Origin: Candidatus Hydrogenedens sp.
GTDB lineage: Bacteria; Hydrogenedentota; Hydrogenedentia; Hydrogenedentales; CAITNO01
Assembly (NCBI GenBank): GCA_012522755.1
Contig: JAAYJV010000073.1
Span: forward strand, 1 to 32,127
Direction of reading: 5' to 3'
DNA length: 32,127 nt
Shown: piece after piece, positions 3,421-32,127 of the stretch
Layout of the letters: every line of letters begins with the position of its first letter
Numbering within the stretch: position 1 is the first letter of the stretch
Position numbers and translations under genes: made by a program
Notes under the pieces: generated by a model
Told to the model about the DNA's origin: nothing
The model's database searches: none
Seen by the model: the letters and a program-made list of their open reading frames with translations, nothing else

Positions 3421-3433
3421 GGGCACCTTTCTT

Positions 3434-7285: not shown

Positions 7286-7707
7286 AAATCGAAATTGGTG
7301 ATATCGTCGGCTGTACCGATCTGTCCATCTTTTCCGGAACTGATGAGATCAAAATCAACGCCTTGTTCGGGCGGACAACGGTAATAGTATTCACGGCCCC
7401 AGGGGTCCATGAGCCGTTTACGTGTATAAGGTCCGTCCCAGCTCTGCTGGTTTTCCAGGTTCGCCGGAGCACGGTACAAAGCTTCAAGCCCCTCCTCCGT
7501 TGTGGGGAAACGACCCACATCAATATGAAAGCTGTCGAGCATGGTGGTGATGCTCTGAATCTCTGCCGTAGCCGCACGGGCCCGGGCCTTGTCCGGATTC
7601 CGCACCAGACGGGGCACAGCCACAGCCGCCAGCACGCCTATGATCAGCACGACGAGCATCAATTCAATCAGTGTGAATCCTTTTTGCGAACAGGACCGGC
7701 ATTTCAT
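7282..7707 (-). CDS. gspG: Type II secretion major pseudopilin GspG
   Basis: 141 residues, the repeating subunit of the pseudopilus. The leader MKCRSCSQKG is cleaved before FTLIE (Gly10/Phe11; Glu15 is mature position 5). The classical GspG features follow: FPTTEEGLEALYRAP, DPWGREYYYRCPP, and the calcium-site region SSGKDGQIGTADDI (about 123-136). The start forms ATGA with the gspF stop. The match to the family is full length and very clear. Confidence 0.97.
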   Translation of the reverse strand: MKCRSCSQKGFTLIELMLVVLIIGVLAAVAVPRLVRNPDKARARAATAEIQSITTMLDSFHIDVGRFPTTEEGLEALYRAPANLENQQSWDGPYTRKRLMDPWGREYYYRCPPEQGVDFDLISSGKDGQIGTADDITNFDL

Positions 7708-8909: not shown

Positions 8910-8931
8910 CAAGCCACCCGAATCATCACGC

Positions 8932-10542: not shown

Positions 10543-11799
10543 CTACCGACCCTTCCGTGAAACATACAAAGCCAATGCGCCGCCACAGGCCAAAACAAAG
10601 AGGACAGCTGCAACCCGGACAAAAACGCTGGATTGTGACCGCTTTGAAGTATCCTGTTCTGTGCTCTTTCTCAACTGGAGTGTAACAGCAGCAGATGTTT
10701 CGCTTTCTTCAGCATCTTTGTCCCTTGTCAGCTGAGCCATGCCCCTCAGCAGATAATCCTCCAGAGCATCAACATCCATACGTGGCAGAAATTTTCCATC
10801 TTTCCACGTGAAACCGCTAGCCAAGGTCCCATCTTTCTTCCGAAAATACACAAATACATTTTCTGAAAAATCAGTAACAAAAGCATCCAGTGCATCAAAA
10901 TTCGGGTTCAAGTCAAAATGCTCTACGGTGTAAGTATTTTTTAAAAAGACGGGATCCGAGTTTTCGTATTCGTACACCTCAGTCGATTCAAGATGAAGGG
11001 GAAGATAGTGTCCATCCTGTTCTTTGTACTCTGAAACATACACTTCCCACCGCTTTTCCTTAAGGATGATTCCATCTGATCTATCGGCTGCAAAAAGTTT
11101 ACCATCTATATCAACATGCTTCCCGGCTGCTTTTGTCATCATACACTTTGTCATGACATGGTTTTTATCCGGATCAAGCCAAAGCTCTATATCACCTTCC
11201 GGAAGAGATGCTGTCACAATACAATGTCGGATCCCTTCAATTGCTTCTTCCCTGATGGCCACATTGTCCTTTGTAAGAAGATCAGGGATTCTCTTTGTGC
11301 TGAACGTACGTCCATACCCCAGAAGAGGTCCTGCACTGACAATTCCAATAGCCAGGTCCCTGTGAAAAGCTTTCTCACCATCTTCGTGAATATACAAAAA
11401 ATTTTCAAAGCTCTCACCGTCTTCCTGGCGCACTTGGAGTTCTCTGAATGAAAAATTATTCAGATCTTTAGAATACAGTCGGTGAAAACGCTCACCGGGA
11501 AGATTGCCGTACTCTTCAGCAGGTGTGACATGAATCACCCCTTTTTCACACATGCGATTTCCGCTGTCATTATAAAACTTGTACACGCAGGAGAACTCTG
11601 GTTTACTGTCGGGCATGCTACTTGAGCCATCATACATTTTTATATTTAGCGCAACGCTGTTTGTCCATTCGTAGGAGTCTCGAAAAGCCTGGAGAATTGA
11701 TTCCGGATCAATAGCCTCGGCAAAAAGCACTTGCTGGGACAACGTACAAAGAATAAGTAGCTTCACTGCTCTTATATTTTTAAAATATTTGATAAACAC
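10543..11799 (-). CDS. Array paralog P17, last copy before the secretion operon; start uncertain
   Basis: About 418 residues from GTG 11799. This start gives MFIKYFKNIRAVKLL..., closely parallel to the P8 leader MMIKRYFKTAF, and a signal peptide ending LFAEA. Core motifs: DPESILQAFRDSYEW, LWLDPDKNHVMTKC (His replaces the usual Tyr), NPNFDALDAF (Asn for the Asp of NPDF), KKDGTLASGFTWKDGKF. The membrane module SSVFVRVAAVLFVLACGGAL with tail YVSRKGR belongs to the P15/P16 type. Unlike P13-P16, the P17 body does not begin at the upstream gene's ATGA junction; that ATG opens a 27-codon dead-end frame. A longer frame reaches ATG 11919, but its extra residues do not look like a signal peptide. Expression may be weak. 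Confidence 0.82.
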   Translation of the reverse strand: MFIKYFKNIRAVKLLILCTLSQQVLFAEAIDPESILQAFRDSYEWTNSVALNIKMYDGSSSMPDSKPEFSCVYKFYNDSGNRMCEKGVIHVTPAEEYGNLPGERFHRLYSKDLNNFSFRELQVRQEDGESFENFLYIHEDGEKAFHRDLAIGIVSAGPLLGYGRTFSTKRIPDLLTKDNVAIREEAIEGIRHCIVTASLPEGDIELWLDPDKNHVMTKCMMTKAAGKHVDIDGKLFAADRSDGIILKEKRWEVYVSEYKEQDGHYLPLHLESTEVYEYENSDPVFLKNTYTVEHFDLNPNFDALDAFVTDFSENVFVYFRKKDGTLASGFTWKDGKFLPRMDVDALEDYLLRGMAQLTRDKDAEESETSAAVTLQLRKSTEQDTSKRSQSSVFVRVAAVLFVLACGGALALYVSRKGR

Positions 11800-11828
11800 A
11801 AATATTTTCGATTTGGTAATACATGGGA

Positions 11829-11912
11829 TCACTGGACATACCCTTTCGGATATCTTTCTTTTTGACACACCCGGAGCATGGCGATGAGTTGAGGGAACCA
11901 GGTCTTTTTCAT
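11829..11912 (-). other. 27-codon frame at the P16/P17 junction, probably the decayed start of P17
   Basis: The ATG at 11912-11910 overlaps the P16 stop as ATGA and has AGGGAG about eight bases upstream, the same arrangement that starts P14, P15 and P16. The peptide begins MKKTWFPQLIAML, which resembles the P14 start MNQSWLTKSIPLF, then runs into a stop codon. The P17 signal peptide appears shortly afterwards in another frame. This looks like an ancestral start cut off from its gene by an indel; it could also be a translated leader peptide. Confidence 0.35.
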
Positions 11913-13186
11913 GACTCATCTCCCTGTGCTGAACTGCGTCTCTTCTTTCCTGTCCTATAGACAACAAAGCCCAAGGCTCCGCAAATCAGTACCAACACAA
12001 CGCCTCCAACCCAGACATAAACGCTGGATTGACAATGATTTGAAGTTTCCTGTCCTGCACTGTCTCCCAGCTGAAGCGCAACAGCTGCGGCTGACTCCAT
12101 CTCTTTGGAATCTTTGTTTCCTTCCAGCTGGGCAATGGCTGTGTGCAGACGCTCTTCATTCACCTTGTGACTCGCATCAGCCACCAGTTCTCTATCTTCC
12201 CATCTGAAGCCGGATATACCTTGACCACCTGCTTTCCTCAGCTGGGCGGGGCCTGTCACTTCCGGCAGTTCAAAAGCCTTCAGTGCGTCAAAATCCGGGT
12301 CGAAATCTATCTCCGATAAGCTGTGGACAGCGGAATGTTCATGAATTACCCGTCCTTCTTCAGATTCCTGCCTCTCCAGCCTTTCCAGACTGACGGGAAT
12401 ATGGTGCCCGTCCGTGTATTCTGTTGCATGTACATTCAATTCCGTGACAAATCTTTTCCTGGAAACCAAGGTGCCTGAAGAATCCGGAAAAGACTCCTCC
12501 ACCAGGGGAGTCCCGTCAAAGAGGTCCCTCCCAGCCTCTTTTGTGAGAATACACTTTTGCATTACATAGTCTTTATCAGGCGAAACCCAGAGTTTTATCT
12601 GTCCTTCGGGAACGGTGGCTTCCAGAACCAGGCTTCTGTCTTCATTGAGCATATCTTCGCGAATGATCACATTATCAGAGCTGAGCAACTCAGGAATACT
12701 TTTGTCGCTGAACAGCAGATCAAATCCGAAGAAAGGAGCAATGGACAGCTCTCTTGGCAGGTTATAGTTATAAGCCTCTGGACCGTCTTCGTAGACCGTC
12801 ACAAAGGCCAGGTCACCCGACTCATCGGGCGGCCCTATCTGAAAATCATAAAAATGGTTCTCGCCTTTTTCCTTTAACAGTACTTTCACAAAAGACAGGG
12901 TATCTTCAACAGCTTCTCCTGTGACGGTGCTCCTGACTTCCACTGTGCTCTTTATGCTGATTGCCTCGCCATTATTGTTATGGAAGTCGCTATTTTTAAT
13001 GTACTGTTCGCGCAAATCAGCGTCGACACTTGTACAGGTCGCATGAAAAGCAACGTGCTCATGCCAGTTGAAAGCCTTCTTCACAGCGTCCAGAATGTCC
13101 TGCGCTTCATCAGCATGGACAAAAGAGGATGCAGTGACGGTCAGGACAAAAGCGGCGATCAGGTGAGCACAACAGTTTCTTTTCAT
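11909..13186 (-). CDS. Array paralog P16
   Basis: 425 residues from ATG 13186, which overlaps the P15 stop as ATGA and has GGGAGG upstream; the longer open frame to 13306 lies inside P15 and is a shadow. Signal peptide MKRNCCAHLIAAFVLTV, ending VHADE. The N-terminal motif is diverged (DILDAVKKAFNW). Core LWVSPDKDYVMQKC and DPDFDALKAF. The final segment of the usual KKDGT stretch is altered to KAGGQGISGFRWEDREL. The membrane module SSVYVWVGGVVLVLICGALG with tail KKRRSSAQGDES is shared with P15 and, in its last residues, with P13. The first half resembles P7 in part (FFGFDLLFSD.S.PELL against FFGIDVLFSD.A.CDLL). Confidence 0.93.
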   Translation of the reverse strand: MKRNCCAHLIAAFVLTVTASSFVHADEAQDILDAVKKAFNWHEHVAFHATCTSVDADLREQYIKNSDFHNNNGEAISIKSTVEVRSTVTGEAVEDTLSFVKVLLKEKGENHFYDFQIGPPDESGDLAFVTVYEDGPEAYNYNLPRELSIAPFFGFDLLFSDKSIPELLSSDNVIIREDMLNEDRSLVLEATVPEGQIKLWVSPDKDYVMQKCILTKEAGRDLFDGTPLVEESFPDSSGTLVSRKRFVTELNVHATEYTDGHHIPVSLERLERQESEEGRVIHEHSAVHSLSEIDFDPDFDALKAFELPEVTGPAQLRKAGGQGISGFRWEDRELVADASHKVNEERLHTAIAQLEGNKDSKEMESAAAVALQLGDSAGQETSNHCQSSVYVWVGGVVLVLICGALGFVVYRTGKKRRSSAQGDES

Positions 13187-14439
13187 GCCTCGCCTCCCGG
13201 TGTTACACTCCGCCTTTTTTTCATCATAAAGACAAAAGAGCCAAAGGCACCACAAGCCAGGACCAACGCAACAGCTCCAATCCAGACAAAAACGCTGCTT
13301 TGGCACTGCTTTGAAGTTTCCTGTTCTGCACTGTCTCCCAGCTGAAGTGTGACAGCCGGGGCTGCTTGATTTTCATTTGAAGCTTGCTCTGTTTGTAAGC
13401 GAGTAATGGTCTCTTGCATTGAATCTTCACGAAGAGTTTTGTCCACATCAGGGACAAGCTTTCCCTCTTCCCACTGAAATGTGGTAAACAAAGTCCCTTC
13501 TTTTTTCGCCAGGGTGGTAGAAATGCCCGGGGGTGGCGAAAATTCAAAGGCATTCAATGCCTCAAAATCCGGATTCAGATCAATATCCAGAAGGCTGATG
13601 TCTGTGTTCCATTCGAAGTGCTCATCATTCTCATACTCTTCCATTTGACGATAGTGCATTCTGGAAGGAAGATATTGATCATCCATGCTGGTGCTTTCCA
13701 GCACTTCTATTTCCCTGGTTACACGAATCACATCCAGAGGCGGGTCATGAAGCACGTTGCTGTGGCTGTAAAGTTCTCCGTCATAATCCAGGTCCTTTCC
13801 TGCTTCCTTGACGAGCACACACTTTTTCAGCGTATACCCTTTATCTGGTGAAAGCCAGATTTTTATCCGCCCTTCAGGGACCTCTCCTTCCAGCAGTGTA
13901 TAAAGCCCCCCTTCCAGGCGATCCTCCTTTACACTCAGCGTATCTGCGGTTAAAAGCTCCGGTAAAGACGCTTTGCTGAAGGGGAAGGAAGCGCCCAGGA
14001 TATGGCTTCCGAAGAAAAGATGCCTTTCAAAGAATGATCTCCCCGCTTCCGCCCCTTTTTCATCCACACGCAGACGACCCAGAGTCTCTCCCCCTTCTTC
14101 CCCAAGATCTAAAATACAAAAATAATCTGAAGTAGCTTGTGGTGAAAAGATATATTGTGTTGCATATTCGTTCTTCCGCCCCCGGATTGCTGCATGCATG
14201 TTCATTTGATCATGATCATCGTTATAAAAACGATATTCTTCGTGAAACTTTTTATCTTCCGCATTACTGAAAGTAGAAACAGAAGTGGCGTGTATGGCAA
14301 CCTTTCGCGTCCAATTATAAGAGTCCCGAAAGGCCTGAAGAATGCTTTCCGTATCGGGATCTTGAGCACAAAGAAAGGGTTGCAGCAGAAACAGAGCCAG
14401 GATAAATATAGAGGATATGTTGTAAAGGCAATTTCTCAT
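13183..14439 (-). CDS. Array paralog P15
   Basis: 418 residues from ATG 14439 (GGGAGA upstream, ATGA overlap with P14). Leader MRNCLYNISSIFILALFLLQ is the same leader type as P13 and P11. Motifs: DTESILQAFRDSYNW, IWLSPDKGYTLKKC, NPDFEALNAF, KKEGTLFTTFQWEEGKL. The conserved Cys before the LWL strand is absent (GGLYTLLEGEV), so only the Cys of the KKC motif remains there. Membrane module SSVFVWIGAVALVLACGAFG, tail MKKRRSVTPGGEA. A Cys lies just before the helix (KQCQSS), as in P16. Confidence 0.94.
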   Translation of the reverse strand: MRNCLYNISSIFILALFLLQPFLCAQDPDTESILQAFRDSYNWTRKVAIHATSVSTFSNAEDKKFHEEYRFYNDDHDQMNMHAAIRGRKNEYATQYIFSPQATSDYFCILDLGEEGGETLGRLRVDEKGAEAGRSFFERHLFFGSHILGASFPFSKASLPELLTADTLSVKEDRLEGGLYTLLEGEVPEGRIKIWLSPDKGYTLKKCVLVKEAGKDLDYDGELYSHSNVLHDPPLDVIRVTREIEVLESTSMDDQYLPSRMHYRQMEEYENDEHFEWNTDISLLDIDLNPDFEALNAFEFSPPPGISTTLAKKEGTLFTTFQWEEGKLVPDVDKTLREDSMQETITRLQTEQASNENQAAPAVTLQLGDSAEQETSKQCQSSVFVWIGAVALVLACGAFGSFVFMMKKRRSVTPGGEA

Positions 14440-14700
14440 TGACTCTCCCTTCTTCTTTTCACAATGCGATAAGCAATCCATGCGCCAATCAGCACAATCA
14501 GTCCCGCTGCCATGAGGATGTAGAGCCACATTTCTTCTTTCATCTGGGCGGCTGCGTCGGAGTCCAGTTTATTGACCAGAAGAGAAAGTTTTGCTGGCGC
14601 CTTTGTATTATCGGAGGGAGTAGTGTGGATGGCCGCAAGCCCTTCCTGCAGCTTTGTATCCACAGACTGCTCATCCATGGGGGCAATAAGCTTTCCATCT
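14421..14700. repeat. Junction repeat, copy a (end of P14 and start of P15)
   Basis: This block runs from the P15 signal peptide, through the ATGA stop/start overlap, into the linker of P14. It matches 16981-17260 (end of P12, start of P13) over most of 280 bases at about 2.56 kb spacing, and matches 19461-19640 (end of P10, start of P11) over its first part. The conserved unit therefore crosses gene boundaries. Confidence 0.8.
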
Positions 14701-15722
14701 TCCCATTTGAATCCGCTAAGCTCGGTTCCATCTTTTTTGATGAAATCAACAGAAGTATCTTCCGGGACGACAAAATGAAAGGCTCCCAGCGCTTCAAAGT
14801 CCGGGCTGAGATCTACTTCAGAGATAACAGCGTTTCTGAACATTTCGAATACACCATCATCAACCAAGTCTTCACGATAAAGATACTCTATATGACGAGG
14901 AATAAAGCGCCCATCTACAGATTGGGTCTCGCTGACAGTTATTTCGATAATATTTCTCTTTATAGTCTCCTCCGAAAAGAAATCAACCCCTCCATATATT
15001 TCAGATCCTTTTGCGTCAAAATCTTTACCAGCCTCTTTAATCAAAATGCACTTTTGAAGGGTGTAATTCTGATCAGGTGAAAGCCAAATCTCCACAGATC
15101 CCTGGGCTATGGTCGCCTCAAGCACACAACTCCGGACACCGTCATTGATTTCCTCACGCATTGTGACAGCATCGGGCGTCAACAGGTCATAGAGAGGCTG
15201 TGTGCTGAAGCCGGTAGCATAGCCTGAAAATATTGCAAAAGGGTGCCCAAGTGTCTGTTCAAGGCGGACCCGATCTTCACCGGCCTCCCAGACTTTCAAG
15301 TAATCCTCCCTCCCACGATCATCGCTTATAGCGCTATGTTGCAGATAAAGACCGCCAGTATTCTCTCTGGAAAAGAATTTTTGAAACTGCTCATCCAGAA
15401 CGCCCCCATGAGAAAACACAGTAAGTTCTCCGGTACGGAGATTGCGATCCTGTCTTGTGCCGACCGTCCTGAAGTTGCGATCTCCATCAATATAACAATC
15501 AAAGTCAAAGACCTCGGCCTCATCCGGAGAACTGCCCACACGAGTAAAAGATTCAATGTGCATGGCCACATCATTCATCCAATTGAAAGAATCACGAAAG
15601 GAATTAAGGATACTTTCAGGGTCAGGCTCCCCGGCGGAGAGGGCTGCGGGCATGATAAAGAACCCCGCCAGAGCTGCCAGGATGAACAGGGGAATAGATT
15701 TGGTTAGCCAGCTTTGATTCAT
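14436..15722 (-). CDS. Array paralog P14, a mosaic of P13-type body and P12-type membrane module
   Basis: 428 residues. Signal peptide MNQSWLTKSIPLFILAALAG, ending ALSAGE. ATG overlaps the P13 stop as ATGA, with AGGAG upstream. From the signal peptide to NPDF-type SPDFEALGAF the protein closely follows P13 (both have LYDLLTPDAVT, EIWLSPDQNY, KDFDA.GSEIYGGVDFF and KRNIIEITVSE). From KKDGT onward it switches to the P12 type: APMDEQ.VDTKLQEGLA, KLSLLVNKLD, then the helix and the tail KRRRESQ. The Cys pair (RSCVLEA and LQKC) is present. Confidence 0.95.
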   Translation of the reverse strand: MNQSWLTKSIPLFILAALAGFFIMPAALSAGEPDPESILNSFRDSFNWMNDVAMHIESFTRVGSSPDEAEVFDFDCYIDGDRNFRTVGTRQDRNLRTGELTVFSHGGVLDEQFQKFFSRENTGGLYLQHSAISDDRGREDYLKVWEAGEDRVRLEQTLGHPFAIFSGYATGFSTQPLYDLLTPDAVTMREEINDGVRSCVLEATIAQGSVEIWLSPDQNYTLQKCILIKEAGKDFDAKGSEIYGGVDFFSEETIKRNIIEITVSETQSVDGRFIPRHIEYLYREDLVDDGVFEMFRNAVISEVDLSPDFEALGAFHFVVPEDTSVDFIKKDGTELSGFKWEDGKLIAPMDEQSVDTKLQEGLAAIHTTPSDNTKAPAKLSLLVNKLDSDAAAQMKEEMWLYILMAAGLIVLIGAWIAYRIVKRRRESQ

Positions 15723-17002
15723 GATTCGTCTCCTGATGTTGTGTTTTTCCTCGTCTTTCTTTTAAGACAGACAACAGCAACCACGGCTGTAGAGGCGAAC
15801 AACAATAGCACACCTGCCGCCCACACAAGCACAGTAGAAGGTTTTCGCAGGAAAGCTTCCTGTTCTTTGGAATCTCTCAGCTGGAGTACAGTTCCGGCAG
15901 CGCTTTCAGGCTCCTTTGAGCCCTCCTCTGTTTTCAGCTGAGCAATGGTTGTTCGTATGTTATCGTCCAGATCATCAGCATCCATATCAACCACAAGTTT
16001 GCCGTCTTCCCACGTGAATCCGCTAAGAACGGTTCCATCTTTTTTTCTAAAATATGCAGAGGTGCCAGCAGGTACAACAAAGTTAAAGGCTCCCAAAGCT
16101 TCAAAGTCCGGGCTGAGATCTACTTCAGAGATAACAAGGTTGTGATAATGTTCGTATATACTATCATCAGCCAAGTCTTCACGATAAAGATATTTCATAT
16201 GACGAGGAACAAAGCGCCCATCTACAGATTGGATCTCACTGACAGTTATTTCGATAATATTTCTCTTTATAGTCTCTCCCGAAAAGAAATCAACCCCTCC
16301 GTATATTTCAGATCCTCTTGCGTCAAAATCTTTGCCGGCCTCTTTAGTCAGAATGCACTTTTGAAGGACGTAATTTTGATCAGGCGAAAGCCAAATCTCT
16401 ATAGACCCCTGATCTGTAATTGCTTCAAGTACACAACTCCGGACTCCCTCATTGATTTCCTCGCGTATTGTGACAGCATCGGGCGTCAACAGGTCATAAA
16501 GAGCCTGTCTACTGAAGCCGATAGCATAGCCTGAAATCACTGCTAAAGACTGTTCAAGAGGGATCCCCTCGTCCCCAACCTCCCAAACTCTCAAGTCATC
16601 CATCCGACCATCATCACGGCTGATAGCGGTATGTAGCAGATAAAGATTGCCGCTGTCCTCCGTGGACAAGAATGTTTGATACTGCTCATCCACAACTCCC
16701 CCATTGGGTTGAATACTGAGTTTTCCTGTGTGAGGATTGACTCTCTGTCTCGTACCGGTAGTTCTGAAGTTGTGATCTCCATCAATATAACAATCAAAAT
16801 CGTAGACCTCGGCTTTATCCGGAGAAGCGCCACCCAAGGTGGAGAATTCAATGTGCATGGCTGCAGTGTCGATCCAATTAAAAGAATTTCGAAATTCTTC
16901 CAAAATACTTTCGGGGTCAGCACTTTGAGCAAAAAGCACTGGTAAGGGCAAAAGCAAAACCTGAAGACATAGAGCAGATATGCTGTAAAGGCAATTTCTC
17001 AT
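15719..17002 (-). CDS. Array paralog P13
   Basis: 427 residues from an ATG that overlaps the P12 stop as ATGA. Leader MRNCLYSISALCLQVLLLPL, ending LFAQS; motif DPESILEEFRNSFNW (about 29-43). Core EEINEGVRSCVLEA (181-194), EIWLSPDQNYVLQKC (202-216), SPDFEALGAFNF (297-308), RKKDGTVLSGFTWEDGKL (319-336). The linker and helix (STVLVWAAGVLLLFASTAVV, about 389-408) are of the P15-P17 type, with the tail KRKTRKNTTSGDES. The body is the closest relative of P14 although the C-termini differ, which shows that the two modules move separately. Confidence 0.95.
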   Translation of the reverse strand: MRNCLYSISALCLQVLLLPLPVLFAQSADPESILEEFRNSFNWIDTAAMHIEFSTLGGASPDKAEVYDFDCYIDGDHNFRTTGTRQRVNPHTGKLSIQPNGGVVDEQYQTFLSTEDSGNLYLLHTAISRDDGRMDDLRVWEVGDEGIPLEQSLAVISGYAIGFSRQALYDLLTPDAVTIREEINEGVRSCVLEAITDQGSIEIWLSPDQNYVLQKCILTKEAGKDFDARGSEIYGGVDFFSGETIKRNIIEITVSEIQSVDGRFVPRHMKYLYREDLADDSIYEHYHNLVISEVDLSPDFEALGAFNFVVPAGTSAYFRKKDGTVLSGFTWEDGKLVVDMDADDLDDNIRTTIAQLKTEEGSKEPESAAGTVLQLRDSKEQEAFLRKPSTVLVWAAGVLLLFASTAVVAVVCLKRKTRKNTTSGDES

Positions 17003-17260
17003 TTACTCTCCCTTCTTCTTTTCACCATGCGATAAGCAATCCATGCGCCGATCAGCACAATCACTCCGGCTGCCGTGAGGATATAGAGCCACATTTCTTT
17101 TTTCATCTGGGCGGCTGCATCAGGGTCCAGTTTGTTAACCAGAAGAGAAAGTTTCTCCGGCGCCTTTGTATTTTCTGAGGGAGTAGTGTGGATGCCAGCA
17201 AGCCCTTCCTGCAGCTTTGTATCCACAAACTGCTCATCCATGGGAGCAATGAGTTTTCCG
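16981..17260. repeat. Junction repeat, copy b (end of P12 and start of P13)
   Basis: Best match is 14421-14700. In this copy the stop and start are AAATGAGA on the minus strand, the intact form that shows what was lost at 19481-19484. Confidence 0.8.
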
Positions 17261-18216: not shown

Positions 18217-18310
18217 GATTAAGAAGCCTTTCCTGAGTGCTGAGATTTCTTTTTGATGATTTTATAAACAACCCAGCCACTGGTCAGCACAATCACTCCG
18301 GCTGCCGTGA
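18090..18310. repeat. Second junction repeat type, copy a (end of P11 and start of P12)
   Basis: Matches 20570-20790 at about 2.48 kb spacing, covering the P11 tail, the two-base gap and the P12 N-terminus. Together with the whole-length similarity of P12 and P10 it indicates a duplication of about 2.5 kb that carried two genes. Confidence 0.8.
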
Positions 18311-19439: not shown

Positions 19440-19460
19440 AACCAGAAGAGATAGAGCAGA

Positions 19461-19640
19461 TATGTTGTAAAAGCAACTTCTTATTTACTCTCCCTCCGTC
19501 TTTTCACCATGCGATAAGCAATCCAGCCGATGATCAATACAATCACTCCCGCTGCCGTGAGGATGTAGAGCCATAGCTCTGCTTTTATCTGGGCGGCTGC
19601 ATCAGGATCCAGTTTGTCGACGAGGAGAGAAAGTTTTGCC
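19461..19640. repeat. Junction repeat, copy c (end of P10 and start of P11), with start lost
   Basis: Same unit as 14421-14700 and 16981-17260, but the minus strand reads AAATAAGA in place of AAATGAGA. The single change keeps a stop codon for P10 (TGA to TAA) and removes the ATG of P11. Confidence 0.8.
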
Positions 19641-20695
19641 GGTGCTTTCTTCTCCGAGGGAGTTGCATCCAGCGCACTCAGTGTTTCTCCAAGTTTTATT
19701 TCGAAAGAGTGCCCATCCATGGGAGCAATAAGTTTTCCGTCTTCCCAGGAAAACCCATAAAATCTTGATCCATCTTTTTTATGAAAAGTCACTTCAGAAT
19801 CTTCGGAAAAAGTGGCTTCAAAGGCATGCAACGCTTCAAAATCAGGATCCAGATCTATGGTTGTAATCCGGCATATTACTTCCGTAGGAAGATCCTCACC
19901 CCCTTCAAATTGCTGAACGTGGGAGAATTCCACTTCTACAGGAAAAAAATGTCCGTCTTGATAACGATATTGCGAAAAAGTTATTTCACCTATGCTCCTT
20001 TGGAGAGACTCCCCTTGATCATTCGTAAAAGAATAGGTACCCCCACTTAAACCCTGATGCTTCCCGGCTTCCTTTGTTAAAACGCACTTTTTCATAATAT
20101 AGTCTTTATCGGGCATGAGCCACAGTTGTATTTCTCCTTCAGGAGTGGACGCATTCAGAACACAATACCGAGTACCTTCTACTTCTTCCATTTGAAGCGT
20201 GGTATTCCTGGGTGTTAAAACATCGGGAAGAGGCGTATAACTGAACCAAGGCCCATATCCGAGGAACGAAGCAACAGTCGGCTTTTTCACTACCATCGCA
20301 AAAGAAGAAAAGCGGTCTCTCCCGGACTCATAAATATCCAATGTCGGTCCGAGGTCCTCAGGTACAACATCACCTTCCAATCCCCAAATAGTCTCGTCAA
20401 AAAACAAACCATCCAAGTCCTCGGAAAAAAGTGTTTTTGCCCTTACTCCTGACACTTCTGGAGATACTTGCCAAACGCCTGTCTCTTGTATTTCCATACG
20501 CTTGCCATGGTCATTAAAAAAATGACCTTCGCTCTGGGAATCTCCTGAGGACTCGGAGATTTCGACGAAATCAAACGCTACATTGTGCGACCAGGCAAAT
20601 GACTCCCTGTAGCCCTTGAGAACAGTATCCAGATCATAAGGCTCTTCAGATTGGAGTGATCCTGACAAACTCAAAAGAAAAACCATGATTGCCAT
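19481..20695 (-). CDS. Array paralog P10
   Basis: 404 residues, a close duplicate of P12 along almost its whole length (DLDTVLKGYRESFAWSHNVA is identical). As in P12, the signal peptide MAIMVFLLSLSGSLQS lacks a basic start, and the same frame upstream reads RKGFLN without an ATG. It begins two bases after the P9 stop. Core VEGTRYCVLNA, LWLMPDKDYIMKKC, DPDFEALHAF, KKDGSRFYGFSWEDGKL. Helix LYILTAAGVIVLIIGWIAY, tail RMVKRRRESK. It ends TAA where its relatives P12 and P14 end TGA. Confidence 0.93.
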   Translation of the reverse strand: MAIMVFLLSLSGSLQSEEPYDLDTVLKGYRESFAWSHNVAFDFVEISESSGDSQSEGHFFNDHGKRMEIQETGVWQVSPEVSGVRAKTLFSEDLDGLFFDETIWGLEGDVVPEDLGPTLDIYESGRDRFSSFAMVVKKPTVASFLGYGPWFSYTPLPDVLTPRNTTLQMEEVEGTRYCVLNASTPEGEIQLWLMPDKDYIMKKCVLTKEAGKHQGLSGGTYSFTNDQGESLQRSIGEITFSQYRYQDGHFFPVEVEFSHVQQFEGGEDLPTEVICRITTIDLDPDFEALHAFEATFSEDSEVTFHKKDGSRFYGFSWEDGKLIAPMDGHSFEIKLGETLSALDATPSEKKAPAKLSLLVDKLDPDAAAQIKAELWLYILTAAGVIVLIIGWIAYRMVKRRRESK

Positions 20696-20790
20696 GTTTA
20701 AGAAGCCTTTCCTGAGTGCTGAGATTTCTTTTTGATGACTTTATAAACGACCCAGCCGCTGGTCAACACAATCAATCCCGCAACGGTGAG
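20570..20790. repeat. Second junction repeat type, copy b (end of P9 and start of P10)
   Basis: Partner of 18090-18310. The coding sequence for the tail KKKSQHSGKAS, the two-base gap and the short leader are all conserved. Small differences change the codon before the start (ATC in one copy, AAC in the other). Confidence 0.8.
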
Positions 20791-21975
20791 GATAAGGAGC
20801 CTCTTTTCTTTTTCGATCCGGACGCTTGCACCGGTGTCAAGATTATCAACATGGAGCGAGAGTTTTGCTGGCTCTTTTGTTTCATCAGAGGGACCTGTGG
20901 TTATGAGATTAAAACGCTCCTGCAACTTACTATCAACAAAATCCTCGTCCATGGGAGCAACCAGCTTTCCATCTTCCCATTTGAAACCGGACAATCCGGT
21001 TCCGTCTTTTTTGATGAATCTTGGACTGCTGACCTGAGAATAATCGGGGAAATCAAAGGCGCCCAGGGCATCAAAGTCAGGCGACAATTCCACGGATGTA
21101 ATCTTTGCCGTTTCCTCCCTCTCCAGTTCTTTCTTATCTCCAACTTCGTTCCAAGCCGTATATTTGATCTCTCCCGGCACGTGGAAGTTGTCAACTTTTT
21201 GGAAATTGGTATAGCTGCATTCAAAAACATGTTTCTCTGTATTTTCGTCCATTGCATCAGGATCCAGTGCTTGGAGCACCTTAATGCCTTCCGGATCTTC
21301 CCCCATTCCACTGACGAGGCGCCATTTTTGCATGGCATAGCCCTCTTCCGGAGAAAGCCAGACGCTCAAGCTGCCTTCTGGAAGATCAACTTCCACACGG
21401 TAGCTGGGCCGTCCGTCCATTTCTTCCATCTCTATACTGCCAACGCTGTCAGCAGTCAGAAAATTTTGAACAAATCCCGGGGTGCCTGGAAGACGTCCCA
21501 GAACAAGTCCTATGGCTGAGAACCTTCTGATGGAACGGTCGGCGCAATCCGCTCCGTCTTCGTGTATGTACAATGTTTCAATTACTTTGCTGTTACCGTC
21601 CCCCATCCCCGAAAAGCAAAATCCCTCAGCTTCATCCACACACAGACCATCACTAAAAAGCTTTCGCGGTTGGCCATCGTCACCCCTCACTATTTCTCCA
21701 GTATCTTTATGAACATGATGCCAATCGTATATTTTCCTGAGTCGCCCCTTTCCATCGTGATGATATACATATTCTGCATGCCTGACCGTATCAGAGGTTA
21801 AGAAATACCACTCGGTACCTGTAAGGCGTAATGACACATCATCCTGCCACTTCAGGGAGTCGTTAAAGGCCTGGAGAATAGTTTCCACATCAGGACTTTC
21901 AGCCGCCAGCAGAGGCGACAGCGCAAGGATAAGCGCCAAAAAAGAAAGCCGTGCTTTGTTGTTCTTCTGTTGCAT
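20698..21975 (-). CDS. Array paralog P9
   Basis: 425 residues, KW type. Signal peptide MQQKNNKARLSFLALILALS, ending LLAAES. Motifs: DVETILQAFNDSLKW, MDGRPSYRVEVDLPEG, VWLSPEEGYAMQKW, SPDFDALGAFDFPDYS, KKDGTGLSGFKWEDGKL. The LWL-proximal Cys pair is absent, as in all KW-type members. Helix LLILTVAGLIVLTSGWVVY, tail KVIKKKSQHSGKAS, nearly identical to the P11 tail. AAGGAA lies about nine bases upstream of the ATG; four bases separate it from the P8 stop. Confidence 0.94.
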   Translation of the reverse strand: MQQKNNKARLSFLALILALSPLLAAESPDVETILQAFNDSLKWQDDVSLRLTGTEWYFLTSDTVRHAEYVYHHDGKGRLRKIYDWHHVHKDTGEIVRGDDGQPRKLFSDGLCVDEAEGFCFSGMGDGNSKVIETLYIHEDGADCADRSIRRFSAIGLVLGRLPGTPGFVQNFLTADSVGSIEMEEMDGRPSYRVEVDLPEGSLSVWLSPEEGYAMQKWRLVSGMGEDPEGIKVLQALDPDAMDENTEKHVFECSYTNFQKVDNFHVPGEIKYTAWNEVGDKKELEREETAKITSVELSPDFDALGAFDFPDYSQVSSPRFIKKDGTGLSGFKWEDGKLVAPMDEDFVDSKLQERFNLITTGPSDETKEPAKLSLHVDNLDTGASVRIEKEKRLLILTVAGLIVLTSGWVVYKVIKKKSQHSGKAS

Positions 21976-21979
21976 CCCA

Positions 21980-23257: not shown

Positions 23258-23260
23258 TCC

Positions 23261-24538: not shown

Positions 24539-24544
24539 TATTCC

Positions 24545-25819: not shown

Positions 25820-25902
25820 GGTGTTAATTGTCCTCTCTGAGTCAGTTTTCTTTTCAGCAAATCACTGGTGTCCAAATTAAGGCTATCATCAAATCCACAT
25901 AG

Positions 25903-25942
25903 TTGAATTCATTGGTATTTTGGCCAGCTTTTGTCTTCATTT
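25903..25942. repeat. 40-base direct repeat, copy 1
   Basis: Starts TTGAATTCATTGGTATTTTG and matches 26251-26290 with about three mismatches. The two copies frame the GxxExxY remnant and its inverted repeat, 348 bases apart. They could be a duplication from insertion or the traces of repeat-mediated recombination. They are longer than the target-site duplications of most insertion sequences. Confidence 0.75.
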
Positions 25943-26057
25943 TTCCGGTTCCCTGGATCAGGTTGACTGACCGTTGCATTGGCCTGTCCAAGAAAAGCTG
26001 ATTTGGACAAGGATGAAGAATTTTTATAGTTTGCTTTTTTTCTTCCCTTCGTGTTTC

Positions 26058-26081
26058 TTAGTGTGACTTCGTGGAAGAAAA
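26058..26081. repeat. Left arm of an inverted repeat around the GxxExxY remnant
   Basis: Contains TTAGTGTGACTTCGTGGAAG. Its reverse complement matches 26167-26202 except for a 10-base extra unit (TTACACGAAG) in the right arm, so the arms are 24 and about 35 bases. The loop of about 85 bases carries the conserved ELKA core. CTTCGTG-type repeats next to GxxExxY genes are common in environmental bacterial genomes as I recall them. Confidence 0.7.
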
Positions 26082-26166
26082 AACAATTCAACAATTGCGC
26101 TTCCGTCTTGCTGCTTAAACTGTCCAAGGCTTTCAGTTCCACGATGACCTGATCATAACAGATCAA

Positions 26167-26202
26167 ATTTTCTTCCACGAAGTTACACGAAGTCACACTA
26201 AA
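26167..26202. repeat. Right arm of the inverted repeat around the GxxExxY remnant
   Basis: Contains TTTTCTTCCACGAAG, then a 10-base unit TTACACGAAG, then TCACACTAA. The 10-base unit is an internal tandem copy absent from the left arm. The paired arms could fold into a long hairpin on either strand. Confidence 0.7.
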
Positions 26203-26250
26203 GGAAAGACGATGCAAATATAATGGCATGACGCCTGTTCAAGTCATTTG

Positions 26251-26290
26251 TTGAATTCATTGGTATTTTGGCCGGATTTTATCTTCATTT
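26251..26290. repeat. 40-base direct repeat, copy 2
   Basis: Starts TTGAATTCATTGGTATTTTG, in the same orientation as the copy at 25903-25942. It ends eight bases from the P5 stop codon, so the repeat boundary nearly coincides with the end of an array gene. Confidence 0.75.
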
Positions 26291-26298
26291 CTCTCTCT

Positions 26299-27498
26299 TC
26301 ACAGGCTTTTCCTTTTCAGAAAATAGTGAATACCCAGGGCGGCGACCAGCAGAAAAAGGGCAAGCGTAAGGAGCATCACAATACGGGCCTGATTCCATCC
26401 CTCATTCACAGCGGCTTCTGGTGCTCCTGTGGACAGGCTGAGCACTGTTGTAACCTCTTCCGGGTCATATTCTTTCTGTTGATCGGAGTCCTCCCAGGCA
26501 TCATAGATCTCATCTTCTTCAAATAACAATTCCAGATCACCGTCTTTCCATCTGTAGCCGGGAATGATCATTCCGTTGGGTTTGAAGAGGGCTGATCTGT
26601 GAATATGCGAAACATCAGGCAATTTAAAGGCCTGGAAGGAATCAAAGTCCGGGGAAATCTGCACATTCGAAAAGACAGATTTCTTTTCAAAGGTGATTTC
26701 TCTTCGGCCGTCCACTTCATTGCAGTAGATGCTCTCTATTGTCATAGGCACTATATGGCCCTGAATATTTTGCCTGTCAGAAAAAGTAAATTCTTCAACC
26801 TTTCTTTGGACCTTTTTCTCGGGCGGAGCGGTTTCGCCGGCTGTCTCCACATCAATCTCCACTTCCCGGACACGTTGCCATTTCTGCATGGCATAGCCAT
26901 CCTGTGGAGAGAGCCAGAAGGTCAGAGATCTGTCAAAATGTGTGGTTTCCAGAATCACACTGGGTTCACCGTCCAAATCTCCTTCCCTGACACTTATGAT
27001 GTTCTCAAGTTTCAGGGCTCCTTCGAGAAACTTTCCGTTATAAAAATAGGCATGGGCCAATGTCTGCATGAGATGTTCCAGTTCCTGAGGTCCATCTTCA
27101 TGGACATTCAACTCGCAAGGATCTTCGCCCAGAATCTCCAACATGAAACCCTTTGTTTCCGGGGAATAAATCCGGTCCCGATAGTCAGTAATGTCGGACT
27201 CACGGGACAAAGGCTCGCCTGTGATGCGGTCAAAACCACTTGCTTTATCAATCAGGCGTGCCCGGCGATTCCCGTCCTGATAATAGATACTGTCCACTTT
27301 CACTGTTTCATCGGGATTCCAGGGGGTCACATAGGTAACAGACACCTCAAAAGACACATTGTCAAACCAGGTAAAAGAATGACGCAGGGCTTCGACTATG
27401 GCCTCCGTGTCGAGTTGTTCAGCAGAAAGAAAAGGGTTGAGCAGGAAAATACCCGCCAGGAAGAGTAGGGTAATTTTAAAAGAAGTTTTCCTCGTCAT
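26299..27498 (-). CDS. Array paralog P5
   Basis: 399 residues, the shortest complete copy, KW type. Signal peptide MTRKTSFKITLLFLAGIFLL, ending FLSAEQ. Motifs: DTEAIVEALRHSFTW, LDGEPSVILETTH, TFWLSPQDGYAMQKW, SPDFDSFQAFKLPD. The usual KKDGTxLSGF stretch is diverged to KPNGMIIPGYRWKDGDL. Helix IVMLLTLALFLLVAALGIHY, tail FLKRKSL. AAAGGA lies about nine bases upstream of the ATG and three bases separate it from P4. It is the last copy before the 479-base gap. Confidence 0.93.
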   Translation of the reverse strand: MTRKTSFKITLLFLAGIFLLNPFLSAEQLDTEAIVEALRHSFTWFDNVSFEVSVTYVTPWNPDETVKVDSIYYQDGNRRARLIDKASGFDRITGEPLSRESDITDYRDRIYSPETKGFMLEILGEDPCELNVHEDGPQELEHLMQTLAHAYFYNGKFLEGALKLENIISVREGDLDGEPSVILETTHFDRSLTFWLSPQDGYAMQKWQRVREVEIDVETAGETAPPEKKVQRKVEEFTFSDRQNIQGHIVPMTIESIYCNEVDGRREITFEKKSVFSNVQISPDFDSFQAFKLPDVSHIHRSALFKPNGMIIPGYRWKDGDLELLFEEDEIYDAWEDSDQQKEYDPEEVTTVLSLSTGAPEAAVNEGWNQARIVMLLTLALFLLVAALGIHYFLKRKSL

Positions 27499-27501
27499 TC
27501 C

Positions 27502-28773
27502 TCAATCCTTTCTGCTTTTCTTTTTCATCTTGCCATAGACAAGCCAGCCGCATATCAGCAGAACCAGTGCAGCCAGGGACAGACCATAAACAAAAATATC
27601 TTTTTTGATCTGCTCCGAAACATCTTTATCAATGCTGATCGGCCGCAAGGATAGTTTTCCTTCCGTGCTTTTTCCAGAGGGAGTTGTCTGAATGGACCCC
27701 ACTGCTTTCTTGACCTTTTCTTCAAGTTCATGCTCTTCCATATCAGCAATAAGCTGTTCGTCTTTCCATTGAAAATCTGTGAGCAATGTTCCGTCTTTTT
27801 TCCACAGACGCGGGCGAGTATTTTCAGGCACAGAAAATTCAAAAGCCTTCAATGCAACGAAATCAGGATTGAAATCCACTTTTGAAAGCTCACAGTGAAA
27901 ATCCATGGAGATGGCTTCGTCATTTTCCAGCTCATGGCGATAATGATGCTCTATCTGTAGCGGCACATAGTGGCCATCTACATAAGCGCTTTCTTTCACT
28001 GTAATTTCTGTGACACACTTGGTTTGCCGGGCGTGCCAGATGGGATCTGTATCGCCGTAGGGTGCTGTTCCGTCGGCGGACAGATGCTTACCAGCCTCCT
28101 TGGTAAGTACGCATGTTTGCAGAGAGAAGCCTTGCTCCGGGTCCAGCCACAGCTCCACATACCCCTCGTCCACTTCCACTTCCAACACATAACTTCTCAG
28201 CCCTTCCTGGCTCTCTTCACGGATGGTCATATTGTCGGGCGAAAGAAGATCATAAAGTGCTTTCTTGCTGAATTGGGGCGCATAGCCCAGGAAAGCTGAG
28301 AGAGGCAATATTTTCGTCTTTTCAATATGCCACCGCTCCTCCCCGGCCTCCCACAGATTCAGGGTGCTGTATTCTTTTGACCCTTCATATGATTGTGAAT
28401 GATGGAAATACAAGCCCTCGGCTCCTTGGCCGCCGAACAAGGTCTGGAAAGTTTTGTCCCAGACACTCCCATCGTTAAACTTGCTGAGTTCTCCTGTTCT
28501 GCTATCCAGCTCACGATTGGTACCCACAGCTCTGAACTTTTCGTCTCTGTCATTGAAGAGATCAAAGTCCCAGACCGTGGTCACCTCCGGTGCAAAGTTG
28601 GACACTTGTGTCCCATGAATATGCATGGCTCCATGCTTTGTCCAGTTATAGGAATCTCGAAAGGCTTGCAGCACAGTTTCAGGATCAGGGCTTTGGGCTG
28701 CCAAGGCTGAAGTCAACACAGTCATATTCAACACGATGAGCAGACATTTTTTGAATGAATAAGGCATTATCAT
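27502..28773 (-). CDS. Array paralog P4
   Basis: 423 residues. Starts MIMPYSFKKCLLIVLNMTVL, with two possible ATGs; the first overlaps the P3 stop as ATGA. Signal peptide ends ALAAQS. Motifs: DPETVLQAFRDSYNW, LLSPDNMTIREESQEGL, LWLDPEQGFSLQTC (Thr for the Lys before Cys), NPDFVALKAFEFSVPEN, KKDGTLLTDFQWKDEQL. It sits between KW-type copies P3 and P5 but is clearly of the Cys type, with P6 as its nearest relative. Helix FVYGLSLAALVLLICGWLVY, tail GKMKKKSRKD. Confidence 0.94.
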   Translation of the reverse strand: MIMPYSFKKCLLIVLNMTVLTSALAAQSPDPETVLQAFRDSYNWTKHGAMHIHGTQVSNFAPEVTTVWDFDLFNDRDEKFRAVGTNRELDSRTGELSKFNDGSVWDKTFQTLFGGQGAEGLYFHHSQSYEGSKEYSTLNLWEAGEERWHIEKTKILPLSAFLGYAPQFSKKALYDLLSPDNMTIREESQEGLRSYVLEVEVDEGYVELWLDPEQGFSLQTCVLTKEAGKHLSADGTAPYGDTDPIWHARQTKCVTEITVKESAYVDGHYVPLQIEHHYRHELENDEAISMDFHCELSKVDFNPDFVALKAFEFSVPENTRPRLWKKDGTLLTDFQWKDEQLIADMEEHELEEKVKKAVGSIQTTPSGKSTEGKLSLRPISIDKDVSEQIKKDIFVYGLSLAALVLLICGWLVYGKMKKKSRKD

Positions 28774-30068
28774 TCCCGGCTTTCTCCTTCCCTTGTTGTT
28801 TTCTTCCGAAAGTGCCAGACCAGAGCTGCAAGGGCAAGAAGAAGAAAGAAAGCCGCCAGAGCAGCAATAACGGGAAGTTGAGCTGTACCGGATATTTTAA
28901 AGCCATCACCCTGTTGTTTTTCTCCCAGATTCAGGGATAACCTGTCCGGAGTCTTCTCCTCCTCCGTTGTCCTGGTGCCCTTGAGACTTTCGGTCCCTTC
29001 GTCAAGTTGTCGTTCAACATCCACCACCTCAGGTAGCACATAAAAATCACCGTTATTCCACACCAGATTCTTGATGACAGTGAGGTCTGGTTTTATCAAG
29101 CTGATCTCACTGACATTCGAATAGTCCGGCATGGCAAAGACACCCAGAGCATCAAAATCAGGATTGAATTGAAGGTTGGTCAAACGGCTCGTTTCATCTG
29201 ACATTATTTCCTTTTCATCGCCGTATTCAATCCAACTGAGCTTTTTCAGTTCCATAGGTACATTAAAGCCTTCAATATCCTGGCGATCGTAAAAAGTGTA
29301 TTCCACCACTCTTCTCTCTGTGGCTGCTCCACTCTTTTCTGCATGGGAGGGTTGTTCGACTTCTGAGGGTGTACGATGAACTCCCACCTCACTGACGAGG
29401 CGCCATTTTTGCATGGTATAACCCTCTTCGGGAGAAAGCCACAGGGTCAGATAGCCATCAGGCAGTTCGGCCTCTATAATCACACTGGCCTGCCCTTCCA
29501 ACTCACCAGCCTCCACTTTGGAGATGCGATCCACTGTCAGATCATTCTGCAGGTATTGCCCTGAGATGGAATACAAGCCTTGGAAAAAATTGCTGGAATA
29601 GTGGTTATAAGACCGACGGTCAATTTCCGTTCCGTAGTCAACAAGGCGCACCCTATCCGGCCCGGTAGCCCCCATTGCAAGAATATAAACCCCTTCCATT
29701 TCCGGAATCCAAAAGGAGTCCTTCCAAAATTCCTGGGGGTCAGAATCCTCCACATGTATCTCCCCTGTATCCGGGTCCACTACCCGGCTTTGCGTGGACA
29801 CTCGGAATCGATCAGCACTGTCGTACCAGGATTTGTATGTTTCAGTCATCAATTTCCCGGGGTAGTGGCGGGTCATATAAGAGCTCGTTCTCTCTGCGGC
29901 AACTTTCTCGGGCCAGTCCAAAGATTCACGGAAAGCTTTGAGAACACTTTCTACATCGGGAGTTTCTGCTGCACTGGAAACCTGGAAAATGGCGAGGAAG
30001 CAAACAAGGAAAGAAAAGCTTGTCATGAATGAGAGCAGGCAAGTCTTAAAGTTGCGGTGAGTATTCAT
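28770..30068 (-). CDS. Array paralog P3
   Basis: 432 residues, KW type. Leader MNTHRNFKTCLLSFMTSFSF is nearly identical to that of P2. Motifs: DVESVLKAFRESLDW, LEGQASVIIEAELPDG, LWLSPEEGYTMQKW, NPDFDALGVFAMPDYS. The KKDGT stretch is replaced by KPDLTVIKNLVWNNGDF. The C-terminus departs from P2: helix LPVIAALAAFFLLLALAALV, tail WHFRKKTTREGESRE. The ribosome binding site GAAGAGG lies in the 19-base gap after the P2 stop. Confidence 0.94.
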   Translation of the reverse strand: MNTHRNFKTCLLSFMTSFSFLVCFLAIFQVSSAAETPDVESVLKAFRESLDWPEKVAAERTSSYMTRHYPGKLMTETYKSWYDSADRFRVSTQSRVVDPDTGEIHVEDSDPQEFWKDSFWIPEMEGVYILAMGATGPDRVRLVDYGTEIDRRSYNHYSSNFFQGLYSISGQYLQNDLTVDRISKVEAGELEGQASVIIEAELPDGYLTLWLSPEEGYTMQKWRLVSEVGVHRTPSEVEQPSHAEKSGAATERRVVEYTFYDRQDIEGFNVPMELKKLSWIEYGDEKEIMSDETSRLTNLQFNPDFDALGVFAMPDYSNVSEISLIKPDLTVIKNLVWNNGDFYVLPEVVDVERQLDEGTESLKGTRTTEEEKTPDRLSLNLGEKQQGDGFKISGTAQLPVIAALAAFFLLLALAALVWHFRKKTTREGESRE

Positions 30069-30087
30069 TTTTTGGAAACCTCTTCAG

Positions 30088-31338
30088 TTATTTTTTCCTG
30101 CGGACTCGCCACAAGAGGACCAGAACAATAAAGAGGAGCGATACAGATGCTGCGCCAGCGATAGCCATGGAGCGAGTAAGACCGGGAATGATAAAGGCAT
30201 CACTCTCTTCACTTGCACCCAAATTAAGAGAAATTCTTTCCGGAATCTTCTCTTCCTCTTTTGTCTTTTCAGACTTGTGCGCATCGGCACCTTCAGCAAG
30301 TTTTTTCTCTATATTCACCTCCGGTACCTTGACACGGAAGCTGCCTTCATTCCACTCCAGATTGCTTAAGTGACCACGGTCTTTTCTAAACAAAGTGATG
30401 TCTTCAATATGGGAATAATCCGGCACTTCAAAGACGCTCAGGGCATCGAAGTCAGGGTTGAATTGAATGTCGGATAAACGGCTCGTTACCTCGGAGGTCA
30501 TTTCCTTTTCGTCACCATATTCAATCCAACGCAACTTTTTCATTTCCATGGGCACATTGAAACCATCGACGATTTGCCTGTCATAAAAAATATATTCCGT
30601 AATACTTCTCTCTGTGGCTGCTCCGGTCTTTTCGGCCTGGGAAGGTTGTGTTACTCTGTCTGGTTCAACATGCTTACCCACTTCCTTAACCAGACGCCAT
30701 TTTTGCATGGTATAGCCCTCCTCAGGAGAAAGCCAGAGGGTCAGATGGCCATCGGGCAGTTCCGCTTCGATAATGACACTGGCCTGTCCTTCAAGTTCAC
30801 CTCTTGCCACTTCATTGACACGATCCATGGTGAGATCGTTCTGCAGGTATTTTCCCCGGACGTTGTACAGGCCTTGATAAAATCTGCTGGAACCCGAATT
30901 GTAGAGAATCTGAGACCGTTCCTCGGAGTCATCATACAGCTGTAGCGATTCGATCTCCGTACTACCGGAACCAAGAATATAAACGCCCTTCATTTCAGGA
31001 ATCCAGATTCCATCGTGATAATATTCGTCGGGTACGCCTGTCTCCTGGTTCATCTCCCAGGATTTATGGATGAATCTTAACCGCTCATTCTTTTCATGAT
31101 AGAGCATCGTTGCGTTGGAAATATTATCAGGTTGATAGATACCCCCATAAGAAGTAGTTTGCTTTACGGCCATGTTTTCGGGCCAATCTACGGATTCACG
31201 GAAGGCTTTGAGAACACTTTCCGTATCGATAGTTTCTGCTGCACTGGAAACCTGGAAAATGGCGAGGCAGCAAACAAGCAAAGAAAAGCTTGTTGTGAAT
31301 GATAGCAGGCAAGTCTTAAAGTTACGGTGAGTATTCAT
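30088..31338 (-). CDS. Array paralog P2
   Basis: 416 residues, KW type. Leader MNTHRNFKTCLLSFTTSFSL; the signal peptide is long (about 34 residues, ending SSAAE). Motifs: DTESVLKAFRESVDW (38-52), LEGQASVIIEAELPDG (182-197), LWLSPEEGYTMQKW (201-214), NPDFDALSVF (294-303). An Ala/Lys/Glu-rich linker precedes SLNLGASEESDAFIIPG, the helix at about 389-410 and the tail RVRRKK. From residue 161 on it is very close to P1, which indicates a recent duplication. A 15-base gap separates it from P1. Confidence 0.95.
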   Translation of the reverse strand: MNTHRNFKTCLLSFTTSFSLLVCCLAIFQVSSAAETIDTESVLKAFRESVDWPENMAVKQTTSYGGIYQPDNISNATMLYHEKNERLRFIHKSWEMNQETGVPDEYYHDGIWIPEMKGVYILGSGSTEIESLQLYDDSEERSQILYNSGSSRFYQGLYNVRGKYLQNDLTMDRVNEVARGELEGQASVIIEAELPDGHLTLWLSPEEGYTMQKWRLVKEVGKHVEPDRVTQPSQAEKTGAATERSITEYIFYDRQIVDGFNVPMEMKKLRWIEYGDEKEMTSEVTSRLSDIQFNPDFDALSVFEVPDYSHIEDITLFRKDRGHLSNLEWNEGSFRVKVPEVNIEKKLAEGADAHKSEKTKEEEKIPERISLNLGASEESDAFIIPGLTRSMAIAGAASVSLLFIVLVLLWRVRRKK

Positions 31339-31570
31339 TTTTTGGAAACCTCTTCAGTTATTTTTTCTGCGGACCCGCCACAAGAGTGCGAGAAGAACAA
31401 GGAGGAGCGATACAGACGCTGCGCCCACAATAACCATGGTGCGCGTAACACCGGGGATGATAAAGGCATCACTCTCTTCGCTTGCACCCAAATTAAGGGA
31501 AATTCTTTCCGGAATCTTCTCTTCCTCTTTTGTCTTTTCAGACTTGTGCGCATCGGCACCTTCAGCAAGC
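31185..31570. repeat. P1/P2 junction repeat, close copy of 29920-30300
   Basis: Covers the end of P1, a 15-base spacer and the start of P2; the partner covers the end of P2, a 19-base spacer and the start of P3. Both spacers carry the same ribosome binding region (GAAGAGGTTTCC). Identity is very high, so this is the most recent duplication in the array. Confidence 0.8.
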
Positions 31571-32127
31571 TCTTTTTCTATATCCACCTCGGGTACCATG
31601 ACACGCAAGTTGCCTTCATCCCACTCCAGATTTCTTATGGAGCCACGGCCTCTTCTGTACAAAGAGATATCTTGAATATGGGAATAATCGGGCATTTCAA
31701 AGACGCCCAGGGCATCGAAATCAGGGTTGAATTCAATATCGGACAAACGGCTCGTGCTCTCAAAGGTCACTTCTTTTTCATCGCCATATTCAATCCAACA
31801 CGACTCTTTCATTTCCAGGGGCACATTGAAACCCTCGACGATTTGCCGATCGTGAAAAGTATATTCCGTAATACTTCTCTCTGTGGCTGCTCCGGTCTTT
31901 TCGGCCTGGGAGGGCGGCGTTACCCCATCCGGTTCAACATGCTTCCCCACTTCCTTAACCAGACGCCATTTTTGCATGGTATAGCCCTCCTCAGGAGAAA
32001 GCCAGAGGGTCAGATGGCCATCGGGCAGGTTCGCATCGATTATGACGATGACCTGACCTTCAAATTCACCTCTCTCCACCCCCTTGATACGATCCATGGT
32101 GAGATCGTTCTGCTGGTATTTCCCCCG
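31354..32127 (-). CDS. Array paralog P1, N-terminal part outside the window
   Basis: 258 codons are visible; the frame is open to the window edge. The first visible residues RGKYQQNDLT align with residues 161-170 of P2, so about 160 N-terminal residues, including the signal peptide, lie outside. KW type: LWLSPEEGYTMQKW, NPDFDALGVFEMPDYS, linker KSEKTKEEEKIPERISLNLG (identical to P2), helix TMVIVGAASVSLLLVLLALL, tail WRVRRKNN. An internal ATG at 32097 is not a likely start because homology continues upstream. Confidence 0.93.
   Translation of the reverse strand, partial: RGKYQQNDLTMDRIKGVERGEFEGQVIVIIDANLPDGHLTLWLSPEEGYTMQKWRLVKEVGKHVEPDGVTPPSQAEKTGAATERSITEYTFHDRQIVEGFNVPLEMKESCWIEYGDEKEVTFESTSRLSDIEFNPDFDALGVFEMPDYSHIQDISLYRRGRGSIRNLEWDEGNLRVMVPEVDIEKELAEGADAHKSEKTKEEEKIPERISLNLGASEESDAFIIPGVTRTMVIVGAASVSLLLVLLALLWRVRRKNN

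Follow-up and report, generated by a model that had tools for sequence, protein, structure and literature searches.

The window analysed here, 32,127 nucleotides in length, corresponds to an entire contig (C36) from the 199-contig assembly of an uncultured bacterium's 4.0 Mb genome (G000). It carries an operon for type II secretion (T2SS), in which gspE, F, G and K occur together with the secretin gene D (gspE to gspD, 10428 to 361), and a row of genes that all belong to one family, 16 of them complete and one cut, arranged head to tail on the minus strand over 21.6 kb (10543 to 32127). The features are as follows.

361 to 2475, minus strand: gspD, secretin (Secretin, E 4e-33)
2447 to 3426, minus strand: two genes, of gspM type (183 aa) and gspC type (143 aa), assigned by position and by eye only, no Pfam match
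3434 to 4708, minus strand: gspL-type gene, weak PilN-like C-terminus (E 0.003)
4758 to 5813, minus strand: gspK (T2SSK, E 2e-9)
5810 to 7285, minus strand: three minor pseudopilin genes of gspH, I and J type (N_methyl matches, one just below the cut-off)
7282 to 7707, minus strand: gspG (T2SSG, E 6e-31)
7704 to 8912, minus strand: gspF (T2SSF, E 1.5e-50)
8932 to 10428, minus strand: gspE, 498 aa (T2SSE, E 7e-129, plus MshEN)
10543 to 11772, minus strand: family copy 1, the one closest to gspE, with an uncertain start at about 11772 (the listed ORF extends to 11967)
11909 to 13186, minus strand: family copy 2, probably starting near 13186
13183 to 14439, minus strand: family copy 3, likely start 14439
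14436 to 15722, minus strand: family copy 4, 428 aa, a mosaic of copy 5 body and copy 6 tail
15719 to 17002, minus strand: family copy 5, 427 aa
16999 to 18216, minus strand: family copy 6, 405 aa
18219 to 19439, minus strand: family copy 7, 406 aa, resembling copy 4 in its tail but not in its body
19481 to 20695, minus strand: family copy 8, 404 aa, which duplicates copy 6 at the two-gene period
20698 to 21975, minus strand: family copy 9, 425 aa
21980 to 23257, minus strand: family copy 10, 425 aa
23261 to 24538, minus strand: family copy 11, 425 aa
24545 to 25819, minus strand: family copy 12, 424 aa
25820 to 26298: spacer of 479 bp, the sole long gap, with direct repeats of 44 bp at 25902 and 26250
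26299 to 27498, minus strand: family copy 13, 399 aa
27502 to 28773, minus strand: family copy 14, 423 aa, AlphaFold model 1
28770 to 30068, minus strand: family copy 15, 432 aa
30088 to 31338, minus strand: family copy 16, 416 aa, AlphaFold model 2
31354 to 32127, minus strand: family copy 17, truncated at its 5' end where the contig stops

An initial annotation of this DNA had described a tandem family of 17 head-to-tail copies with almost no spacing, on the same strand as a T2SS operon 114 bases away, and both points were borne out: the last copy ends 114 bp from the start of gspE, and ORFs overlap or nearly touch through the array up to that gene. Gaps between copies range from -4 to +41 bp, with the 479 bp spacer as the single exception; in the ORF list the three copies closest to gspE show larger overlaps, but these are the product of over-long ORF starts, and once the likely starts are taken the complete copies measure 399-432 aa. 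Between its direct repeats the spacer holds a 39 bp inverted repeat and an ORF of 106 aa weakly matching PDDEXK_3, and thus looks like an inserted element. No matches were found in Rfam and tRNA scans of the window, and promoter and terminator scans did no better than on shuffled sequence.

The array is cut by the end of the contig, where the 5' end of copy 17 is lost. A second contig of the same genome, C140, carries genes for a TPR lipoprotein and a solute-binding protein (SBP), two complete family copies and a third that the contig end interrupts; all of these genes point outward. As the ends of C140 and C36 have 159 bp in common at 95%, we infer that C140 probably precedes C36 and that a single array, of at least 18 complete copies and one or two cut ones, was broken in assembly. 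A draft in 199 contigs, with a contig ending inside a repeat, could raise the suspicion of an assembly artefact or of decaying repeats. However, the copies are too diverged for misassembly (mostly 20-40% amino acid identity), all frames are open, and dN/dS is well below 1 for most pairs, so that we consider this explanation very improbable.

A search seeded with one copy recovers every other complete copy with an E value of 7e-22 or better. Identity to a central copy is 21-40%, and W, P and F positions are invariant in the alignment, a resemblance well above what chance would give. The proposal of a variable N-terminal half joined to a conserved core agrees with the mean pairwise identities, 21% at residues 56-160, the lowest, versus 39% in the core (residues 161-232), which together with the first helix is the most conserved part. 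Hydropathy analysis likewise gave the architecture first described, since the complete array copies show an N-terminal signal peptide (weak, as called, in the copies at 16999, 18219 and 19481), one C-terminal helix and, behind it, a short basic tail with 3-7 K/R. Most complete copies have no further strong hydrophobic segment, and there is no cytoplasmic domain past the tail. By prediction, the array proteins are exported and membrane-anchored, and the positive-inside rule, applied to the basic tail, places the main domain in the periplasm.

The same combination of signal peptide, C-terminal helix and short basic tail at the terminus, together with a T2SS link, characterizes the MYXO-CTERM and GlyGly-CTERM proteins exported by T2SSs (PMC3237569, PMC11980579), and such systems have many substrates per genome. 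The array, which adjoins a T2SS, could then encode T2SS cargo: an intramembrane protease would remove the C-terminal helix, and the proteins would leave the inner membrane for display at the surface. Unlike the MYXO-, GlyGly- and PEP-CTERM substrates, however, the array family has no signature motif, and neither the alignment nor a listing of the residues before the helix revealed a common one. Moreover, a profile of the tail matches only family members in the genome and no unrelated proteins, showing that it is not a portable tag. The search for a cognate sortase covered exosortase, for which the match in G000 scores 20.8 bits, below the cut-off of 25.7. On these tests, which cover part of the cargo model, we regard the array proteins as unlikely to be cargo of this kind.

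No Pfam or NCBIfam family matched the family members above cut-off, and a PDB sequence search returned no match. The one recurrent sub-threshold Pfam match was to DUF2092 (PF09865), in two members (E 0.016-0.018, below the gathering score), but not in most; DUF2092 has already been linked to LolA (PMC4520260). AlphaFold models of two divergent copies, 14 and 16 (pLDDT 81.3 and 78.8), both show an open beta-clam with a helical lid, as in the LolA/LolB superfamily, and both match LolA, LolB, LprF and DUF1329 structures in the PDB, the best hits to LolA, LolB and LprF having a probability of 1.00. The best matches across the models were LolA3, DUF1329, LolB, LolA, LprF, RseB and MucB, the last two being matched in addition by model 2 (copy 16). 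TM-scores for the LolA-type matches are modest, 0.4-0.54 by target length. Thus, the initial guess of a relation to LolA, LolB or RseB was right at the level of the predicted fold. A hydrophobic pocket is the unifying feature of the LolA-type superfamily (PMC6363788).

The copies had also been suspected of diversifying, and this is supported. The body of copy 4 tracks copy 5, whereas its tail tracks copy 6; the chi-square for this break is 307 versus a permutation maximum of 22, and five other triplets also surpass all 2000 permutations. Because the copies are such strong mosaics, the row must have grown by recombination, and a shared period of 2479 bp points to duplication of a two-gene unit. 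For most pairs dN/dS is about 0.3-0.4, which shows purifying selection and means that most copies have been kept functional; among the array pairs most alike, the ratio rises in the N-terminal half. Positive selection was considered and set aside, as the sole value above 1 (1.72, N-terminal half of copies 6 and 8) rests on a dS of 0.12.

We then compared 68 genomes of the phylum, which in our collection come from one order and 11 families. Strong family matches were found in four of them, G000 (at least 22), its sister genome G001 (three), G047 (two) and G058 (two), and the large array in G000 only. No SSU rRNA turned up in G000 or G001. A scan of genome contigs yielded just two remote loci, from records of Sedimentisphaerales and Phycisphaerales. 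Relatives of gspE, at the strict cut-off used, are present in 55 of 60 genomes. Those closest to the gspE of the window belong to G008 (71%), G058 (57%) and G047 (53%); in a tree they group with the gspE of G000, with weak support (60/72). As to co-occurrence with gspE-type operons, which the initial annotation proposed to test, nearly all genomes have a T2SS-type gspE and very few have the family, yet the family is present in three of the four genomes with the nearest type (hypergeometric p 3e-4). SBP is strong in exactly these four genomes (p 1e-6) and A3, our label for a protein with no Pfam match, in G008, G047 and G058; the profiles were built from members of this set, so that presence there is not independent, whereas absence from the other 64 is.

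The genes around the family copies give a similar picture. In G000 the order is TPR, SBP and array; G047 has a family copy followed by SBP; and in G058 a family copy is followed by a gene for a C39 peptidase with a rhodanese domain, then MauE, SBP, TPR and A3 (C39 gene to A3, L064 3233-9247). G000 and G058 have homologous TPR proteins. In G008, SBP and A3 lie directly before gspE, and this genome has the closest T2SS, yet no family member. Direct linkage to the T2SS was seen only in G000, for the array, and in G008, for SBP and A3, whereas in G047 and G058 gspE is on a contig other than that of the family and SBP. The family copies found among SBP, TPR and A3 genes belong to another bacterial family than G000, and it is the position of these single copies that points to an ancestral accessory, later amplified. 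The family thus appears to be a long-established but optional accessory in the surroundings of one rare T2SS type, amplified in one genome. Two genes were rejected as constant partners: the C39/rhodanese gene occurs only in G047 and G058 of ten genomes tested, and A3 was not found in G000. Separately, on contigs without a family member (L102/L103), G015 has a diverged SBP, TPR, TPR, A3 set and G012 the SBP, TPR part of it.

Other members lie elsewhere. In both genomes of the genus, copies are found beside uvrC (L026 4103-7980, L061 9186-10496), three in G000, on contig C91 and with no clear C-terminal membrane helix, and one in G001; in a tree, these cluster together and apart from the array copies. 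G001 has a further pair that adjoins two other genes, one of which seems to encode a signal peptide (L060 3181-4998). The uvrC-side member of G001 lies on a contig of 143 kb that has no gspE at all, and that genome lacks the gspE type of the window. Homologous arrays lying routinely far from any T2SS had been named as what would count against the association, and this was found in part. Because there are uvrC-side members far from any gspE, a genome (G001) with members and without this gspE type, and a genome (G008) with this T2SS and without members, the family is not tied to the T2SS. The family does belong near one T2SS type, whereas its description as cargo, partner or client of this T2SS is not supported in that form and stays a conjecture.

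It also seems possible that the expansion is unrelated to the T2SS, the proteins being RseB-like sensors or lipid binders amplified upstream of the T2SS operon by chance. The members beside uvrC in G000 and G001 and the pair in G001 fit this explanation, as do the match of model 2 to RseB and MucB and the rarity of the family in a phylum where T2SS genes are nearly universal; the fusion of related LolA-like domains to ECF sigma factors in G020, G042 and G054 lends some weight to a sensor role. On the other hand, single copies in another bacterial family share the SBP, TPR and A3 neighbourhood, the largest array sits at this T2SS, and in the array proteins the short tail is all that would reach into the cytoplasm. 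A chance association is in our view somewhat unlikely. The reading we tentatively prefer, and which is quite possibly correct, is that the array encodes inner-membrane-anchored binders of hydrophobic clients, a lineage-specific, recombining expansion of an accessory from the T2SS neighbourhood, and that the clients are perhaps handed to the T2SS.

According to this preferred reading, a single-copy accessory gene near a rare T2SS type would have undergone recombining tandem expansion in one lineage. Its product would be a periplasmic domain of LolA fold, held in the inner membrane by the C-terminal helix with the basic tail in the cytoplasm. The clam would most likely bind a hydrophobic group, be it a lipid, the acyl chain of a lipoprotein or a hydrophobic peptide, and the variable N-terminal half, with the first strands and the lid region, may set the client while the conserved core keeps the fold. 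The array and the downstream T2SS are probably on one transcript, and the array proteins might present their clients to the T2SS for transfer to the cell surface, this hand-over being the least secure step. A bolder version, which we think improbable, is that the client range of the T2SS is set by these recombining LolA-fold receptors of the inner membrane; each would load a lipidated or hydrophobic client of its own, so that the array would generate diversity for secretion or surface display. How T2SSs recognize cargo is a long-standing open question; if the array proteins do select cargo, it would become testable through natural domain swaps. Even with no role in the T2SS, this is a protein family lacking a Pfam or NCBIfam model and a clear bacterial tandem array that exchanges modules.

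In the literature we found no LolA-type array described. The array proteins share with the LolA, LolB, LprF and RseB superfamily the predicted fold, the periplasmic location and the N-terminal signal peptide, but differ in their length of about 420 aa and their C-terminal membrane helix, in their at least 18 complete tandem copies and, relative to LolA, LolB and RseB, in having no significant sequence match to the Pfam and NCBIfam models of these proteins. LolA proper is a soluble carrier with no anchor, in contrast to the complete array copies with their C-terminal helix. Membrane-associated T2SS chaperones of the LipB/CpaB class, for which a role before T2SS export has been proposed, are, as predicted for the array, single-pass inner-membrane proteins of the periplasm (PMC4713064); their helix, however, is N-terminal, with the periplasmic domain at the C-terminus, and they lie beside their effector, whereas the array proteins have a C-terminal helix and no recognised effector adjacent. 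The Borrelia BBJ23-29 cluster resembles the array in coding for a LolA-like protein, BBJ28, at a putative export locus, but there the gene is single-copy and accompanied by an ABC transporter and Omp85, with no T2SS (PMC13078400).

Weaker LolA-like relatives occur in some other genomes of the phylum. We also noted ECF sigma factors in which a hydrophobic segment is followed by a LolA-like domain at the C-terminus (L068 9279-11252, L069 7745-9841, L036 1276-2736 and L088 169-2025), two of them in G042 and one each in G020 and G054. These fusions look like one-protein transmembrane sigma sensors.
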